From an uncultured Synergistales bacterium (GTDB lineage: Bacteria > Synergistota > Synergistia > Synergistales > Aminobacteriaceae): a stretch of 13,265 nucleotides of DNA. Under the pieces are notes generated by a model. That model was not told where the DNA came from. It searched no databases and saw nothing but the letters and a program-made list of their open reading frames with translations. The translations under genes were made by a program, and so were the position numbers. This document shows, in pieces, positions 3,243 to 13,265 of the stretch (position 1 is the first letter of the stretch; each line of letters begins with the position of its first letter). The DNA is taken from contig CAJOGG010000014.1 of NCBI GenBank assembly GCA_905234205.1, positions 1-13,265 on the forward strand, in the 5' to 3' direction.

Positions 3243-3899
3243 ATGAATAAGAAATTGAAATTTACGCCGCTGCTTTCTTCAAGTCCATATATGGAGTGGA
3301 CAAAGGAAAAAGGACTCGTGGGCTACGATGAACCTGGGATCGCAGAATATTTTCGTGATTACTGCGGCGGAAGTCTCTGGAACCTTATGCCCGATTGGAA
3401 TAAACGCATTGATAGACTTATTGCAGGGCGAGAGAGTTTCTATGAATTCTTTATGAATACTTATGGCAATCTTGCACACCTTATGTCTGATGATGGAATG
3501 CAGATAATAACGTTTGCTCATAAAAGTCCTGATATATGGGCGGATATAACTTCGGCATTTTTGCATGCTGGTTTGAAAGTGACTGCTGTGTATAGTATCC
3601 AAGACACACCACCAAACGGGCTAAAGAAGGGCGATTACTTGACGTGTATGGTGCTAATAATCCTACGAAAAGCTAAAGATGGCAGGACAATAACTCATGA
3701 TGAAGTTATTAACGAAGCTGTACAACAGGTCAATATTCTGCAAGATATTGAAGATTGCACATACTCTAAAGCAGATTACGTTCAAGCAGCTTACTCTGGC
3801 GCAATGAAAATTTTGACGCAAGCGGATAAGTTGAGTGATTGTCTAGGTATCATGAAGGAAGTGAGAGACATTGCGACGAGATTGTGTAAAACCGCTTGA
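3243..3899 (+). CDS. Protein resembling the C-terminal part of DUF1156/adenine-specific DNA methylase
   Basis: This 218-residue protein resembles the C-terminal portion of large Zn-ribbon/DUF1156 adenine methylases. The stretch at residues 65-120 has a helix (SFYEFFMNTYGNLAHLM), then SDDGMQIITFAHKSPDIWADI, then SAFLHAGLKVTAVYSI. That matches the family order: final Rossmann strand after a DG turn, FxHKxxxxW, then AGFxVTAxxPV. GDYLTCMVLIILRK (130-143) fits the next strand pair. No DPPY/NPPY catalytic tetrapeptide and no glycine-rich SAM loop are visible, so it is probably not a methylase on its own. It may be a remnant, or a partner or decoy protein. Start ATG 3243 follows AGGGGG. Its end overlaps the helicase start by 29 bases. 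The family link is from memory of the motif pattern, without an alignment. Confidence 0.5.
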   Translation: MNKKLKFTPLLSSSPYMEWTKEKGLVGYDEPGIAEYFRDYCGGSLWNLMPDWNKRIDRLIAGRESFYEFFMNTYGNLAHLMSDDGMQIITFAHKSPDIWADITSAFLHAGLKVTAVYSIQDTPPNGLKKGDYLTCMVLIILRKAKDGRTITHDEVINEAVQQVNILQDIEDCTYSKADYVQAAYSGAMKILTQADKLSDCLGIMKEVRDIATRLCKTA

Positions 3900-5868
3900 A
3901 TTACGTCCATATCAGCAAGAAGCTCTCGACTCGATCCCCGAATCGGGAGCTTATGTTATCTGCCTATTTACAGGGGCTGGAAAAACTGTGATTATGTCTC
4001 AAATCCCACGGCGCGGACGCATGCTAATACTTTCACACAGAGACGAATTAGTACATCAGCCTGAGAAATATTTTGATTGCTCTTTCGGGGTTGAACAGGC
4101 AAGCGAGACTTCACATGGCGAAGAAGTTGTAAGTGCGTCAGTGCAATCACTCGTGAGACGTTTAGATAAATTCAAGCCTGATGATTTTGACGTGTTAGTT
4201 ACCGACGAATGTTTTCCCGCGGGAACTAAAGTAAACGGTGTACCTATAGAAGAAATTAGGGTTGGTAATTATGTAACAGCTTACAATCATGAGTTGCAAA
4301 GGTTAGAATCGCGGCAAGTCTTAAGAGTAATTAAGCGTCCGGCACCTGAAAAAATGCTGAAGATCGGAAAACATTTTGTCTGCACTAAGAACCACCCGAT
4401 CTATGACGTTGAAGCACATGACTATGTTAAAGCTGAAGATTTACCGCAATTCTTGCTCACTAATCGAAACGTTGTAACACGAGCGGGGAGCATAGAGGAA
4501 GTAGACGCGTGGCATTATTGCCCTGATGGTTTTGTCTATAATCTCGAAATTGAGGGCCTGAATAACTATTTCGCTAACGGCATTCTCGTTCATAACTGCC
4601 ACCATTCGACAGCTGCAAGTTATCGCAAAATCTATGACTACTTTAAGCCAAGGTTACACCTAGGATTTACTGCGACCCCGAACAGAAATGACGGTGTAGG
4701 ACTATCAGCGATCTATCAGGATATCATCTTTGAACGGGATTTACGGTGGGGAATAGAGAATAAATATCTGTCGCCTTTGAAGTGCTTGCGCGTGGAAATA
4801 GGCTATGACTTGCGCGGGATCGCTACTAGGCTTGGCGACTTTGCGAATGACCAATTAGAGATGGCTATTAATATTGAAGGTGCCAATAAAGCTGTAGCTG
4901 AGGCATACAAGAAATTTGCGAAGCCACCATGCTTGATATTTTGTGCGTCAGTAGCTCATGCGGAGGCGTTGGCGAAAGAAATTCCAGGTGCCGTAGCCGT
5001 GAAAGGCGGTGAAGATCGAAGCGAGATTGTTAAAGCGTTCAGTAATGGCGAAATACCGTGCTTAACAAACTGCATGATATTCACTGAAGGCACAGATTTA
5101 CCCAACATTAATACAATCATAATGGCACGTCCGACGAAAAATATAAGTCTATATACTCAGGCTATCGGACGCTGTTTGAGATTGTATCCAGGCAAAGACA
5201 ATGCGCTTGTTATAGATTGTGTAGGAGCTGGCGATAACGTTGATATTTGCACAGCACCTTCACTAATTGGATTAGATATTAAGGAAGTCCCACCGTCAAA
5301 GCGTAAGAAGTTGCAGGGAGATTTATTTGCGCTGCCAGAATTAGCACTTGAATATATGGACAATCCGGAGAGTTGGATTCAGAACGCACATTATGTTGAA
5401 CTCTGGGCGAAAGAGCAAAGTTATAACTTGCATAACATAAATTTCTTCAGAATGCCTGATGGTAGCATGAGCGTGTTGGATATTTACATACCACCGGCTG
5501 ATAGTTTTGGACGTGTACGTTGGAAAGGAACCTTAACACCTATGCAATGGGTAATTGACGAAGTGTATGAAACGCTAAGACGAGATTATTCAGATAAGCT
5601 ACGTTTTTGGGACTTGGACTATGTGAAAGCGTGGGGAGATGGTCCAGCAACAGAAAAACAGCTCGAGATAATTCGAAGGATTGCTCCGTTATTCAATTAT
5701 AAAGGCTTGACGAAATTTGAGGCTTCACAAATTCTTGCGCGAAACTTCAGGCCAGAGCCACCGACGCCAAAACAGGTATATTTCTTGAGACGGCATGGTT
5801 ATGATCCCAAAGGCTTAACTAAGCGTGAAGCATCGAGTTTAATCGGAAAGATAAGGGCGAGTGCATGA
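3871..5868 (+). CDS. SF2 DEAD/DEAH-type helicase interrupted by a mini-intein
   Basis: A 665-residue precursor; after removal of a 129-residue intein the helicase would be 536 residues. Visible motifs: Q-type start LRPYQQEALDSI (11-22), motif I TGAGKT (34-39), motif II D112-E113 joined across the intein to C243-H244-H245 (DECHH), motif III TAT (267-269 in FTATPNR), and motif VI QAIGRCLR (430-437). It looks like the RadD/YeeB-like phage helicases that act on replication or recombination DNA. The C-terminus has two similar units, TEKQ...LTKFEAS (594-621) and TPKQ...LTKREAS (632-658), perhaps a small DNA-binding repeat. The start is TTG 3871, the only usable start in frame near the Q motif; GGAAG at 3857-3861 lies 9 bases upstream. 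The start overlaps the previous gene by 29 bases, and the stop overlaps the next ATG as ATGA. Confidence 0.88.
   Translation: MRRDCVKPLELRPYQQEALDSIPESGAYVICLFTGAGKTVIMSQIPRRGRMLILSHRDELVHQPEKYFDCSFGVEQASETSHGEEVVSASVQSLVRRLDKFKPDDFDVLVTDECFPAGTKVNGVPIEEIRVGNYVTAYNHELQRLESRQVLRVIKRPAPEKMLKIGKHFVCTKNHPIYDVEAHDYVKAEDLPQFLLTNRNVVTRAGSIEEVDAWHYCPDGFVYNLEIEGLNNYFANGILVHNCHHSTAASYRKIYDYFKPRLHLGFTATPNRNDGVGLSAIYQDIIFERDLRWGIENKYLSPLKCLRVEIGYDLRGIATRLGDFANDQLEMAINIEGANKAVAEAYKKFAKPPCLIFCASVAHAEALAKEIPGAVAVKGGEDRSEIVKAFSNGEIPCLTNCMIFTEGTDLPNINTIIMARPTKNISLYTQAIGRCLRLYPGKDNALVIDCVGAGDNVDICTAPSLIGLDIKEVPPSKRKKLQGDLFALPELALEYMDNPESWIQNAHYVELWAKEQSYNLHNINFFRMPDGSMSVLDIYIPPADSFGRVRWKGTLTPMQWVIDEVYETLRRDYSDKLRFWDLDYVKAWGDGPATEKQLEIIRRIAPLFNYKGLTKFEASQILARNFRPEPPTPKQVYFLRRHGYDPKGLTKREASSLIGKIRASA
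4210..4596 (+). mobile_element. Mini-intein (129 residues) inserted in helicase motif II
   Basis: Precursor residues 114-242 have all splicing blocks. Block A is CFPAGTKV starting with the nucleophile Cys114. Block B is TKNHPIY with its T-x-x-H. Block F is VYNLEIEG...NYFANGILV, and block G is His241-Asn242, followed by Cys243 as the +1 residue. There is no room for a homing endonuclease (A-to-G is only 129 residues), so it is a mini-intein that cannot home on its own. The exteins join as DE-CHH, restoring the ATP-hydrolysis motif, so the helicase should be inactive until splicing occurs. The extein on both sides stays in frame. Confidence 0.92.
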
Positions 5869-8769: not shown

Positions 8770-9166
8770 ATTCGAAAATGAGCTTAACCGGCTCGCGAAA
8801 TACCTAGACAAAATCGGCGTTCATATGCACAAAAATCACGCTAAGAGAACTGAAAGTGGCGTGTATCTGGAAGGAGAACCATTTGATTATGAGGTCTTGA
8901 AGGGAGGTGGTGAGCTTCATGTGTTTGATGCTAAAGAGTGTAACAGCAAGCGCTGGAACCTAAACAACGCCAAATTATCGCAACTTCACAATATGCTTGT
9001 GTGCCAGAAAAATGGTGCGCAGGCATATTTTCTTGTGTGGTTCAGACTTAGCAACAAGATTATCCGCTTCGATGTTGACTTGATTCAGCAGGTGCTAGCG
9101 GAAGGCAAGAAAAGTTTATGTGAGGAGGATGGGAAATTATGGCAATGGACAGAATTGAGTACATAA
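8753..9166 (+). CDS. RecU-like Holliday junction resolvase (PD-(D/E)XK nuclease)
   Basis: 137 residues from ATG 8753. It has the RecU-like order: RRGYEFENEL with Glu7, FDYEV with Asp45, ELHVFDAKECNS with Asp59-Ala-Lys61-Glu, and NNAKLSQLHNML with Gln77, then AYFLVWF. Asp45, Asp59-x-Lys61 form the nuclease core. It would cut four-way junctions made during replication or recombination, which fits the Sak4-like and DUF669 genes upstream. The family is usually near 170-200 residues; this one is shorter at the N-terminus. An in-frame ATG at 8681 lies inside the Bro-N/Lar gene and would add non-conserved residues, so 8753 is preferred. It overlaps the preceding gene by 17 bases and the primase gene by 28 bases. 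Confidence 0.8.
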   Translation: MRRGYEFENELNRLAKYLDKIGVHMHKNHAKRTESGVYLEGEPFDYEVLKGGGELHVFDAKECNSKRWNLNNAKLSQLHNMLVCQKNGAQAYFLVWFRLSNKIIRFDVDLIQQVLAEGKKSLCEEDGKLWQWTELST

Positions 9167-11628
9167 AGAGTAAGTACAACGTTCTGGATTATGCCCGTGA
9201 TGTTTTGGGACTGCCAGTTAATAAGAGTGGCGATCGGTGTACTTCAATAGCACCTGGGCCGCATAAAACTGACAATGCGTTTGTAGCTTATGATGACTGG
9301 TGGTATGACTTCAGCTCCGGTAAGGGTGGAGACATCATAGACCTTTGCGCGGAAGCTAAACATGACGGGGACAAGGGCGCGGCTATTCGTGAATTAGCAG
9401 GCGATTATGGCGTTAATCCTGATTGGGTTGCATATACTGACAAGCTGGAAGATAAAGTTAAATACTGGCATTCTCAGCTTAGAGAAAGTGATTGGCGATA
9501 CTTGCAGCGACGCAAGATTAAGAAGACCACTGTTGACCGTCTCATGATAGGTTACAGCGAAAAACGGCAGAGGCTCATAATCCCCTACTGGAAGAACGGC
9601 TGTGTTGCCTACTGGATAGGGCGAGACAGGAGCGGGGACCCAAAGGCAAGCAAATACGTGAAGGCTTATCTTGACGGGCACAATGAGAATATCCCGTGGG
9701 GGTTGCACAGTTTTACGCCGGAGAATTGTAAACGCGTCGAAAGCGAAATATCTGGCGACACAGAGGGCATGTCGAACGACACGGCTTCTATGTCGGATTC
9801 GGGGGTGTGCATGTCGTTACAGAATATTCAGACTTCAGAAACAATTTCAAAAATGCGTAGTTCAGCGGATAAGCTGCGGCTCATAAAAAAGTACGCGGTT
9901 ATCGCCGAGGGAGCGTTCGATGCTTTGAGTTTTGAGCAGGAAGGGTTCAGGGTTCTTTCTCCAATCAGTGGCTACTTCAATAAGGAATCTACTAAGCAAG
10001 TTGTGTGTATGTTAAAGCATGTGCCTTCAGTGTTCATCTTATTCGACAATGATAAGGCCGGTTCAAAGTTTACCCTGAATATGTGCATGACGTTGTTTAG
10101 AAATCGTATACCGTTTGTGTGTGGCGTTCTCCCCAAAGAGTACAAGGACACTTCAGAATTTTATGAGGCTGGCGGAGATTTATTCACTCTCGTGGACTCT
10201 GCAAAGCCAGGTATACCAATGCTTGCGGCACGTATCACTGACAGGGACGAGTTCAAGAAATTCGTGTATGAAGCGGCGCGATTTGTTGATAAAGCTGATA
10301 TCACAGAATTAATCGAGAACTCCACGCAATTTTCTTCACGTTGGCTCAATACTGTACTGAAGGAAGCTTTGAAGATGCCACCTGAAAGCGTAATTATTGA
10401 TGAAATGCTCAAGCAGTACAAGCTAAAATATGTTGAGAACATCGGCTTTTACGAATATGTTCGCGGAGTCTGGACTAAGCGCACGGACAACTTCATACGC
10501 AGCTATTTTGTAGACCGCCTAGGCTCTTACGCTCAAGGTAACAAGTTGGAAGCACTCCTAAAATACCTGAAAGCAGAGACCACGACGGAGGAGTTATTCA
10601 ACCGTAGGCCAATCTTCAATTTTCGAAACGTAACGCTAGATTTAGCAACAAGTGAAGAACGCGAGCATAGCCCTTCAGATATGTCTTCGATCCAGATGAA
10701 TTATGACTATGACGTGAAAGCAAAGTGTCCACAATGGGAAAAATTTATCTCTGAAATCATGGACGATAATGCGCCTAAAATGAAGTTGTTGCAAGAAATG
10801 GCGGGGTACATACTCTTTGAAGATTGCTCACTCCAGAAATGTTTTATGTTGATTGGCGACGGCTCCAACGGCAAAAGCGTCTTACTGAATGTGATCGCGG
10901 CAGTGTTCAACGAGAAAAACGTATCAAACGTTGAAATGAGTAGCTTACTTGAACCCTTCCAGCGCATAAGCATGATGAATTCGCTTGTGAACATAACCAC
11001 GGAGACTAATTCAAACGTCAAGGGCGCAGAGAGCATTTTCAAGCAAATAGTGGCTGGCGACCCTATTAACGGTTGCTTCAAGAACAAGGATTTTGTAACC
11101 TTCAAACCGCGCTGCAAAATTATCACCGCTAGTAATGAATTCATGAAATCTCGCGATACAACCTACGGCTTCTTGAGACGAATACTTTTTGTGAAATTCA
11201 CACGTACATTTGAAGGCAAGAGCAAGGATAAGAATCTGGAAAGCAAGCTGAAAACTGAACTTTCAGGGATATTCAATTGGGCGTATGAAGGCTATAAACG
11301 CTTACGAGATCAACTGGAATTCACAGAGACCGAAGAGCAAACCGAAATCATGGAAGAATTTATGAAGGTCATGAATCCTGTAGCCGCCTTTATTCAGGAA
11401 GAACTCACAAATGAAACTGGTAGGCTTGGCACGGCTGAACTTTATGAGAAATATAAGGAGTGGGCGACAGAAGCGGGGCATGAGAAAGCTGGCCGTAACA
11501 AGTTCTTACAGAAATTCCGCCAGACCGTAAAACAGCTACTTCCTTACGTCCAAGAGAAAACTATTGCGGGGTTCCGTTGCTTTGACTTTGACAGGCAGCT
11601 TCCTTCGAAAGAGGAAGTTTTCGGATAG
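9139..11628 (+). CDS. D5-type phage primase/helicase (Toprim + SF3 helicase)
   Basis: 829 residues. The N-terminus (1-95) resembles a CHC2-type primase zinc-binding domain but the cysteine set is broken: Cys34 and His42 remain, while the later Cys pair reads YDFSSGKGGD. The Toprim core has EGAFDAL at 257-263 and DNDKAG at 303-308. The C-terminal SF3/D5 helicase has Walker A GDGSNGKS at 573-580, KIITASNEF (motif C) at 660-668 and a GFLRRILFVKF arginine-finger segment at 677-687. It would make primers and unwind at the fork. Residues 204-231 are a linker made of 7-residue repeats (see repeat entry). The start at ATG 9139 follows GGAGG (9124-9128) at 10 bases; ATG 9145 is an alternative. The next gene starts immediately after its TAG. 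Confidence 0.9.
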   Translation: MAMDRIEYIKSKYNVLDYARDVLGLPVNKSGDRCTSIAPGPHKTDNAFVAYDDWWYDFSSGKGGDIIDLCAEAKHDGDKGAAIRELAGDYGVNPDWVAYTDKLEDKVKYWHSQLRESDWRYLQRRKIKKTTVDRLMIGYSEKRQRLIIPYWKNGCVAYWIGRDRSGDPKASKYVKAYLDGHNENIPWGLHSFTPENCKRVESEISGDTEGMSNDTASMSDSGVCMSLQNIQTSETISKMRSSADKLRLIKKYAVIAEGAFDALSFEQEGFRVLSPISGYFNKESTKQVVCMLKHVPSVFILFDNDKAGSKFTLNMCMTLFRNRIPFVCGVLPKEYKDTSEFYEAGGDLFTLVDSAKPGIPMLAARITDRDEFKKFVYEAARFVDKADITELIENSTQFSSRWLNTVLKEALKMPPESVIIDEMLKQYKLKYVENIGFYEYVRGVWTKRTDNFIRSYFVDRLGSYAQGNKLEALLKYLKAETTTEELFNRRPIFNFRNVTLDLATSEEREHSPSDMSSIQMNYDYDVKAKCPQWEKFISEIMDDNAPKMKLLQEMAGYILFEDCSLQKCFMLIGDGSNGKSVLLNVIAAVFNEKNVSNVEMSSLLEPFQRISMMNSLVNITTETNSNVKGAESIFKQIVAGDPINGCFKNKDFVTFKPRCKIITASNEFMKSRDTTYGFLRRILFVKFTRTFEGKSKDKNLESKLKTELSGIFNWAYEGYKRLRDQLEFTETEEQTEIMEEFMKVMNPVAAFIQEELTNETGRLGTAELYEKYKEWATEAGHEKAGRNKFLQKFRQTVKQLLPYVQEKTIAGFRCFDFDRQLPSKEEVFG
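9748..9831 (+). repeat. Four degenerate 21-bp tandem units in the primase linker
   Basis: Units at 9748-9768, 9769-9789, 9790-9810 and 9811-9831 begin ATATCT, ATGTCG, ATGTCG, ATGTCG. They encode ISGDTEG, MSNDTAS, MSDSGVC and MSLQNIQ. The copies have drifted except at the first six bases, so this is an old in-frame expansion in the flexible link between primase N-terminus and Toprim domain. Not essential to fold, so it may be freely variable. Confidence 0.6.
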
Positions 11629-11629
11629 C

Positions 11630-11917
11630 ATGAGTAAGTTCTTAGAGCAGTGCAAGAAATGGCATTTGAAGCCGGTTTATTGTGCTGGTGAAGTTCACGT
11701 AGAGGGTGGCGACATAACAGCGCGGGATCATTTCAATACATTATTGCAGAACACAGATTCGCAAGTCGCAGCACTTCTTGAAATGTATGAAGTCGATGAA
11801 AATTTAAGAGATGATGTTGATGAACGGGCGGCACTTCATGTAGATTACGGCGGATCGGGAGACATAGAAACCGCGATAAGAATCAACTTACAGCTCTTGC
11901 CATACATAAATAAGTAG
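11630..11917 (+). CDS. Hypothetical protein, 95 residues, after the primase gene
   Basis: Unrecognised. From ATG 11630, one base after the primase TAG, it reads MSKFLEQCKKWHLKP then VYCAGEVHVEGGDITARDHFNTLLQ and a long acidic helical part. The first half (amphipathic helix, strand-turn-strand with GG, helix ending ALLEMY) vaguely recalls the small TubC-N-like domain found near primases and helicases, but this is a weak resemblance. An in-frame ATG at 11564 would only read the primase end in another frame. It is acidic overall, without signal or membrane segments, and it closes the operon before the repeat-rich gap. Confidence 0.6.
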   Translation: MSKFLEQCKKWHLKPVYCAGEVHVEGGDITARDHFNTLLQNTDSQVAALLEMYEVDENLRDDVDERAALHVDYGGSGDIETAIRINLQLLPYINK

Positions 11918-11928
11918 TTCCTGCAAAT

Positions 11929-11971
11929 TTAGGTGCACTTCTTCAAAATAAAAACTGCACCTAACTTTTTT
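11929..11971 (+). terminator. Possible intrinsic terminator after the replication operon
   Basis: TTAGGTGCA (11929-11937) pairs with TGCACCTAA (11956-11964) as a 9-bp perfect stem with an 18-base loop, then C and TTTTTT (11966-11971). Position right after the last gene fits. However, the same arms are part of the repeat family, and the long loop weakens it. Confidence 0.4.
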
Positions 11972-12118
11972 GGCCTAAACATTGATGATTACTTACTTCT
12001 GTTTAGGTGCACTTTTTTTGTAACTTAGTTGAATAGAAAATGAAATTTTGAAGGCGGAAGGGGGGTGAAAATCAAGAATTATTGGAGTATATAGGAAAAA
12101 AACTGCACCTAAGAATTG

Positions 12119-12133
12119 TTTAGTGTTCATGCG
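12119..12133. repeat. 15-bp direct repeat, copy 1 (with copy 2 at 12270-12284)
   Basis: TTTAGTGTTCATGCG occurs exactly at 12119-12133 and again at 12270-12284, 151 bases apart, in the same orientation. It is a second, unrelated repeat class in the same gap, and could be a regulator or initiator site. Confidence 0.75.
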
Positions 12134-12306
12134 CCTTTGGGCCAAATTTATTAGGTGCACTTTCTGATTCAGCGCTTTATATGGTTAGATAAGGTCAAAC
12201 CTTGAGGGAGGTTTACAATACCCCCAAAATGGGCAAAATTCGGTTTACTGACACGCTAAACGGGGATTTTTTAGTGTTCATGCGTGTTTATCTTAGGTGA
12301 TTTTTT

Positions 12307-12312
12307 AGGAGG
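12307..12312 (+). promoter_or_regulatory. Ribosome binding site for the TTG-started nrdD
   Basis: AGGAGG 6 bases before TTG 12319. It overlaps the tail of the T-rich partial repeat copy (12293-12306), so a protein bound there could also block translation initiation or transcription. Confidence 0.8.
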
Positions 12313-12318
12313 AAAATT

Positions 12319-13265
12319 TTGAAACAGTATTCTGATGAGTTGTTAAGACTCAATGGCGTTTCTGATGAGCAAGTCAACATTGAAAGTTTTTATCGGACAT
12401 TAACGAATGGAAATTTCGCTGATAACTCTGTAGACTCAAATGCGAATGTCGCGTCCAGGTCTTCGGCGGCTATCATGCAGGAAATAGACAAACCACGACA
12501 GAAGAAATTCGCACTTCAACAAATCCACAAACTTCTCTCTGAATGGCATGATTCAAGCTATGCTGATGAAGTGATTGACAACATTTTGACGGGGCTTCTT
12601 TATCCTCACGATCTGGCATTATTTATGTACTGCCATTATTGCTATGCGTACTCGGCCGAAGAAATCATGAAGAAAGGTTTGCCCTTCATTCCGAAACTGT
12701 ACTCGAGACCGGCTCAACATGCTAGGAGCTTCATAGCTCACGTGAATCAATTCGTGCAATATGCAGCGAATCATCAATCGGGCGCCGCGGCGATTCCTGG
12801 CTTATGGGTTGCTTATGCCTACTATGCTAAGAAAGACAATCTTACCCTGAAAGAACGTCAGCAGGATTATCAAGAGTTCATATTCACCATGAATCAGCCT
12901 GTGAGATATTCAGCTCAAAGTCCATTCATCAACACTTCAATGCTTGATCATGATTACATGCTCGGACAATATGGCAACTTCACGTATCCTGATGGTAGCA
13001 AGCCTGATTTTGAATTCGTCGATCAGATTCAGCGAGAATTTTATGAGTTTTTCAATGATACGATTGACGTTTTAGGACACCCTGTAACTTTCCCTGTTCA
13101 GACCGCCGCAATGATAAAGGACGAGAAGACGGGACTTCCAAAAGATCGTGAGTTCTTGAACTGGTTTGTGAAAGAGAATGTGCGCCACTGCTCTTCAAAC
13201 ATTCTGCTGAATTACGACCCCAATAACTTCGCTTCATGTTGCAGAATGCTCAATTACACCGACCC
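12319..13265 (+). CDS. nrdD: Anaerobic (class III) ribonucleotide reductase NrdD, 3' end cut by window
   Basis: 315 codons from TTG 12319 to the window edge, no stop inside. Class III enzymes reduce ribonucleoside triphosphates to dNTPs with a glycyl radical, activated by NrdG, without oxygen. Visible family features: HDLALFMYCHYCYAYS at residues 97-112, QSGAAAIPGLW (153-163), NQPVRYSAQSPFINTS (192-207), and NPNNFASCC-type motif with Cys307-Cys308 near the cut. The Cys pair and the active-site cysteine region fit NrdD. There is no N-terminal ATP-cone domain: the first conserved block comes within the first hundred residues. The C-terminal glycyl-radical segment is outside the window. The long region upstream gives it its own control. 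The strong AGGAGG at 12307-12312 fixes the start. Confidence 0.85.
   Translation, partial: MKQYSDELLRLNGVSDEQVNIESFYRTLTNGNFADNSVDSNANVASRSSAAIMQEIDKPRQKKFALQQIHKLLSEWHDSSYADEVIDNILTGLLYPHDLALFMYCHYCYAYSAEEIMKKGLPFIPKLYSRPAQHARSFIAHVNQFVQYAANHQSGAAAIPGLWVAYAYYAKKDNLTLKERQQDYQEFIFTMNQPVRYSAQSPFINTSMLDHDYMLGQYGNFTYPDGSKPDFEFVDQIQREFYEFFNDTIDVLGHPVTFPVQTAAMIKDEKTGLPKDREFLNWFVKENVRHCSSNILLNYDPNNFASCCRMLNYTD

Follow-up and report, generated by a model that had tools for sequence, protein, structure and literature searches.

A probable replication origin of opposed iterons behind a D5-type primase-helicase gene in a Synergistales-associated phage contig

Origins behind primase genes and the repeat array of the window

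In the record of the Streptococcus phage Sfi21, the end of a gene for a putative primase bears the annotation "origin of replication, 302 bp non-coding region"; this element has been described as an independent origin that is activated by infection (excerpted text of PMC6356513). In Staphylococcus aureus pathogenicity islands (SaPIs) and phage-inducible chromosomal islands (PICIs), the origin lies immediately 3' of rep (Pri-Rep). The SaPI Rep protein recognises its own iterons via its C-terminal domain; the isolated C-terminal domain of Cch2, from the staphylococcal cassette chromosome mec (SCCmec), binds repeats downstream of its own gene, and Cch2 helicase activity requires an AAGTG iteron (excerpted text of PMC7581432). 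Here we analyse a stretch of DNA of 13,265 bp (the window), which is a complete contig (C14) of a 2.3-Mb Synergistales genome bin comprising 311 contigs. Its non-coding gap of ~400 nt (11918-12318), behind the gene for a D5-type primase-helicase, holds an array of short repeats. We consider it very probable that positions 11929-12165 are a phage replication origin, read by the adjacent primase-helicase.

The proposed initiator (829 amino acids (aa); 9139-11628, + strand) comprises Toprim, D5_N, DUF5906 and Pox_D5 C-terminal domains. Only an open reading frame (ORF) for a 95-aa protein (11630-11917, + strand), which matched nothing in Pfam or PHROG at E 0.001, separates it from the gap. The motif TTAGGTGCA occurs there in five exact copies (11929+, 11956-, 12003+, 12104-, 12151+), each with a T-rich run behind it on the same strand, just as an earlier note on this DNA had described. 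The resulting iterons form two blocks (+ - + and - +) with inverted core-proximal copies. Iteron 1 (outer left, 11929-11943, +) and iteron 3 (core-proximal left, 12003-12017, +) face the core from one side and iteron 4 (core-proximal right, 12098-12112, -) from the other, while reversed outliers lie 46 nt outside the core-proximal copy on either side: iteron 2 (11950-11964, -) beyond iteron 3, and iteron 5 (12151-12165, +) beyond iteron 4. The central core of 80 nt (12018-12097), the proposed melting site, is 67.5% AT, compared with 64% for the gap and 58% for the contig (0.70 vs 0.62 by 8-mer borders), and 69% purine on the + strand.

Two further elements that the earlier note had listed are present as well. 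The interleaved direct repeat belongs to a 24-nt family with copies at 12115-12138 (+) and 12266-12289 (88% identity), and a partial sixth copy, TTAGGTGATTTTTT (12293-12306, +), stands immediately 5' of the AGGAGG of the nrdD ribosome site. Because the ~86 nt that contain TTAGGTGATTTTTT and the second interleaved copy (12221-12306) have no counterpart in a sister phage (see below), both probably lie outside the conserved element, and the sixth copy is a doubtful member. TTAGGTGATTTTTT resembles the left half of the window iteron joined to the right half of the sister's iteron.

The window shares several features with the systems named above: the gap lies directly 3' of the primase, it contains two opposed sets of short iterons, and the primase carries a D5-type helicase and a C-terminal winged helix. 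The likeness to Sfi21 extends to the primases themselves (22% identity over 280 residues, E 2e-16), to upstream genes for a Sak4-like protein and a helicase, and to the repeats: in Sfi21 the six-mer AGTAAC occurs seven times in 400 nt, and by eye GTTACT repeats face AGTAAC repeats over an AT-rich core, one reversed copy lying ~45 nt outside. Sfi21 differs in its iteron letters, in a core made of an AAAT-type simple repeat, in its host (Streptococcus thermophilus) and in having the DNA polymerase/primase as a separate gene. The closest solved relative that we found for the window primase is the SaPI5 primase-helicase. PICIs, however, are satellites, whereas the window contig has genes for a beta clamp, ThyX, NrdD and a methyltransferase as well as antirepressor-like genes, a set which suggests that it derives from a full phage. 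Cch2 is likewise a D5-type helicase with repeats just downstream, but in the excerpted account three iterons are reported, the element is a chromosomal cassette, and priming falls to a separate protein pair. A further comparison is with the alpha protein of the satellite phage P4, whose origin also has iterons; its sequence profile match to the window primase reaches just E 0.35. P4 has a second origin site, crr, and no counterpart of it was seen in the motif scan of the window.

Repeat arrays downstream of D5-type primases

We assembled 200 D5-primase loci from genomes of the host genus, the wider order, GTDB contigs and IMG/VR. The primase end was present in 197; 167 remained after loci with identical last 150 residues were dropped, and 160 were tested (seven had <400 nt downstream). 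A significant array (p ≤0.01) was found in the 800 nt 3' of the stop codon at 67 of the 160 loci, compared with 8 of 535 control windows from the same loci, and clustering at 70% identity left 129 clusters, 51 of them with an array. Since gaps as such could be repeat-prone, we ran the test again with long gaps alone (≥250 nt, delimited with a crude ORF caller). Such a gap followed the primase at 98 loci and was lacking at 69 others; arrays were detected in 39 of the 98 post-primase gaps and in 8 of 242 other gaps. The letters of the iterons vary by lineage (AAGTGCCC, AATGACAG, TGTGTAAG, TGAAACAG, GGTCAGGG and others).

The arrays also share a layout. The longest gap between neighbouring copies measures 60-110 nt in 44 of the 67 significant arrays; the copies that flank it face opposite ways in 43 of these, and it is AT-richer than the surrounding 800 nt in all 44. 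In a set of 37 non-redundant arrays preselected for an opposite-facing core, 26 show a copy turned the other way at 40-59 nt outside the core-proximal one. Because opposite-facing cores and reversed outer copies are so common among the arrays, the + - + - + order of the window is a compact form of a widespread two-block layout, its core lying at 12018-12097. Of the functions that the earlier note had put forward, a phage replication origin with iterons is strongly supported.

What is unusual about the array is its exact, clustered copies and not a loose count over the whole contig. Allowing up to one mismatch, the contig holds 6 matches against 2.9 expected, which is unremarkable (at least 6 were found in 16 of 200 shuffles), and a 13-mer with up to three mismatches gives 7 matches against 7.1 expected. 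In contrast, one 8-mer occurring five times within 800 nt 3' of the primase has p 0.005, the lowest value that 200 shuffles allow, and five copies compare with 0.19 expected in 750 nt. Across the 2.3-Mb bin, the 13-mer with at most one mismatch occurs nine times, five of them in the array and four as scattered singles (a backward control pattern occurs five times). In viral contigs the pattern TTAGGTGCACTTTT matches at least 119 stretches, with one match apiece among the 80 stretches listed. A 20-mer common to window and sister had no match in the viral contigs scan and a second such 20-mer had four loci; the window primase and the window NrdD each have one close relative in these contigs.

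Some results weigh against the association of arrays with D5 primases or limit it. Ten cultured-phage regions, hand-picked from tblastn lists, are not enriched: two of the ten have a significant array downstream, one of these being a Staphylococcus record with the label PI, and two of the ten have one upstream. Paenibacillus phage Wanderer, in which GTAAC-like repeats are visible by eye, fails the array test (p 0.116), and many D5-primase loci are without a detectable array. The terminase family TerL_ATPase (PF03354) was found in 1 of 19 array-carrier records, a count that does not establish the carriers as phages. At one locus (L199), AAATCTCT is repeated 25 times in a gap that starts ~6.2 kb before the primase stop. 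The blocks of copies mostly oppose one another, lie a long way from the D5 primase and resemble a second origin that would be served by a different initiator.

A sister phage and the proposed reader of the iterons

Among the 43 genomes of the genus, the sole other copy of the window gap was found in the same bin, on contig C78 (locus L162). The gene order there is that of the window, with a primase (84% identical over the shared part), the 95-aa protein and NrdD. Over 11918-12200, window and sister are identical at 177 of 233 positions outside the iterons and at 22 of 50 inside the five 10-mers (Fisher p 2.5e-5). The changes run in parallel: T2 became A and G4 became A in all five iterons, and T1 became G and C8 became A in four of five. 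In every copy A3 and GTG are unchanged, as is most of the T-run. The earlier note had regarded a related phage with the same flanking genes and no motif as evidence against its proposals, and had expected the motif rather than the spacing to be kept. Taken literally, the sister is such a phage, but it does have an array, in register with that of the window and spelled differently; the reverse of the expectation is seen, and it is the layout that is kept. Because two more distant relatives, L166 (TAGGTGCA, TAGGGGCA) and L168 (TTGGGTGCA), resemble the window, the sister lineage is probably the one that changed; L161, L165, L169 and L170 are unlike the window. The origin type is already known, and what the sister shows in addition, for which we claim no priority, is the concerted change of letters in all five repeats with the layout kept. 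The bin contains at least five different D5-primase fragments, on contigs C14, C78, C128, C158 and C209 (the window and L161-L164), and the downstream motifs differ among C14, C78 and C128.

From the array and its neighbour we infer how such an origin would work. The five TTAGGTGCA copies would serve as iterons in two blocks, the inner copies opposed across the 80-nt core. The C-terminal winged-helix domain of the primase-helicase (residues 745-829; 11371-11625, + strand) would bind them and assemble one helicase ring per side. Once these rings had melted the core, synthesis would be started by the primase half and proceed outward both ways. Within this domain, the third helix (residues 786-800; 11494-11538, +) is the same in the sister, with 22 of 22 residues identical over the third-helix stretch. 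The wing hairpin (residues 805-816; 11551-11586, +) lies in a stretch, 803-818, that is identical at 10 of 16. Because the third helix is identical between the sisters while the wing stretch differs, the comparison suits, but does not prove, a wing that reads the iteron positions that changed; the third helix would then read the part conserved in the sister (A-GTG). There is a precedent in RFX1, whose wing reads the major groove. A Foldseek search with the last domain gave no match at E ≤0.001; 1dp7 ranked 11th (E 0.21) amid many winged helices, and 1ka8 was not among the 50 matches listed. A Mantel-type comparison over 70 loci gave p 0.002 for every part of the protein, with the C-terminal domain standing out no more than the others, and a bootstrap of iterons against this domain favoured it for closer pairs only.

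The identity of the third helix despite different repeats could mean that the repeats of the origin are bound by a different phage protein, which loads the primase-helicase; candidates are the 95-aa neighbour, a Bro-N protein and the LuxR-type helix-turn-helix protein that the earlier note names. The 95-aa protein does adjoin D5 primases in several relatives. We nevertheless judge this improbable. Arrays recur with D5 primases at very distant loci, whereas relatives of the 95-aa protein were matched in just 8 of the 43 genus genomes (its own genome counted), several of them directly 3' of a D5 primase. Furthermore, the related SaPI Rep and Cch2 bind their own repeats themselves (excerpted text of PMC7581432).

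The proposal makes of a puzzling repeat array an origin-initiator pair that can be tested. The sister contig provides a natural comparison, with initiator C-terminal halves that are 84% identical and the same array scaffold in different letters. Confirmation would give a handle on the evolution of initiator-origin specificity and on the reach of the SaPI/PICI layout beyond satellites. A broader idea, which we put forward tentatively and with more doubt than belief, is that D5/RFX-like primase-helicase phages share one deeply conserved origin geometry in which the letters are free, and that sisters switch all iterons together with the initiator wing, so that origin identity would act much like an incompatibility label. 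On this view, the origin organization that has been called unique to phage-inducible islands would be general among phages. The sister primase is truncated where its contig ends and is spread over two open frames (L162 5749-6684 and 6696-7271, - strand); it may be broken or misassembled. This lowered our estimate of the broader idea to that tentative level and leaves our confidence in the origin itself unaffected.

Regulatory alternatives and the contig around the array

The repeats might also be operator sites through which a repressor acts on nrdD or later genes, such as the earlier note had envisaged for nrdD. The gap is directly 5' of nrdD, the partial copy abuts its ribosome site, and one array can serve both replication start and transcription regulation. 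We regard such a role as highly unlikely, as arrays accompany the D5 primase whatever the next gene: NrdD adjoins the array in one of the eight loci whose next genes were scanned, and that one is the sister. An nrdD at locus L010, 68% identical, is without the motif, and no D5 primase was recognised by eye in the 3 kb upstream of it. The partial copy is absent in the sister, and the scan found one promoter-like site against 2.0 expected.

A processed or structured RNA, in which mutually exclusive hairpins control nrdD or end the primase transcript, is scarcely credible: adjacent + and - copies can indeed pair as the earlier note proposed, and the parallel change in the sister largely preserves the pairing, but the hairpins are modest (-10.7, -11.9 and -17.8 kcal/mol) and fold only mildly better than shuffles (z -1.87, -2.26 and -1.71), the same-orientation neighbouring copies of many relatives, 8-11 nt apart, cannot pair mutually, the T-run 3' of the first hairpin is not conserved in the sister, the window has no Rfam match at gathering score (sub-threshold matches all have E 1.1 or worse), and the promoter/terminator scan gave no terminator-like site and nothing above chance. 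An RNA fold of one L162 stretch missed most of the L162 array and is little informative.

Ten proteins of the contig were scanned with Pfam and PHROG. In addition to the primase-helicase and the 95-aa protein, they comprise a ThyX fragment, a Sak4-like protein, a beta clamp, a ResIII-type helicase, a DNA methyltransferase, two Bro-N proteins and NrdD; no structural genes were identified on the contig. NrdD, an anaerobic ribonucleotide reductase (12319-13265, + strand; Pfam NRDD, E 1.4e-29), starts with TTG at 12319, preceded by AGGAGG, and is truncated by the contig end; it is a neighbour of the origin and lies outside it. The named loci nearest to the window primase come mainly from Synergistaceae and Fretibacterium bins, so the phage host is probably a member of this group. 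The ResIII-type helicase (3871-5868) contains a mini-intein-like insert of ~125 residues in its DEAH box (~residues 114-243), and its homologue at L009 is uninterrupted.
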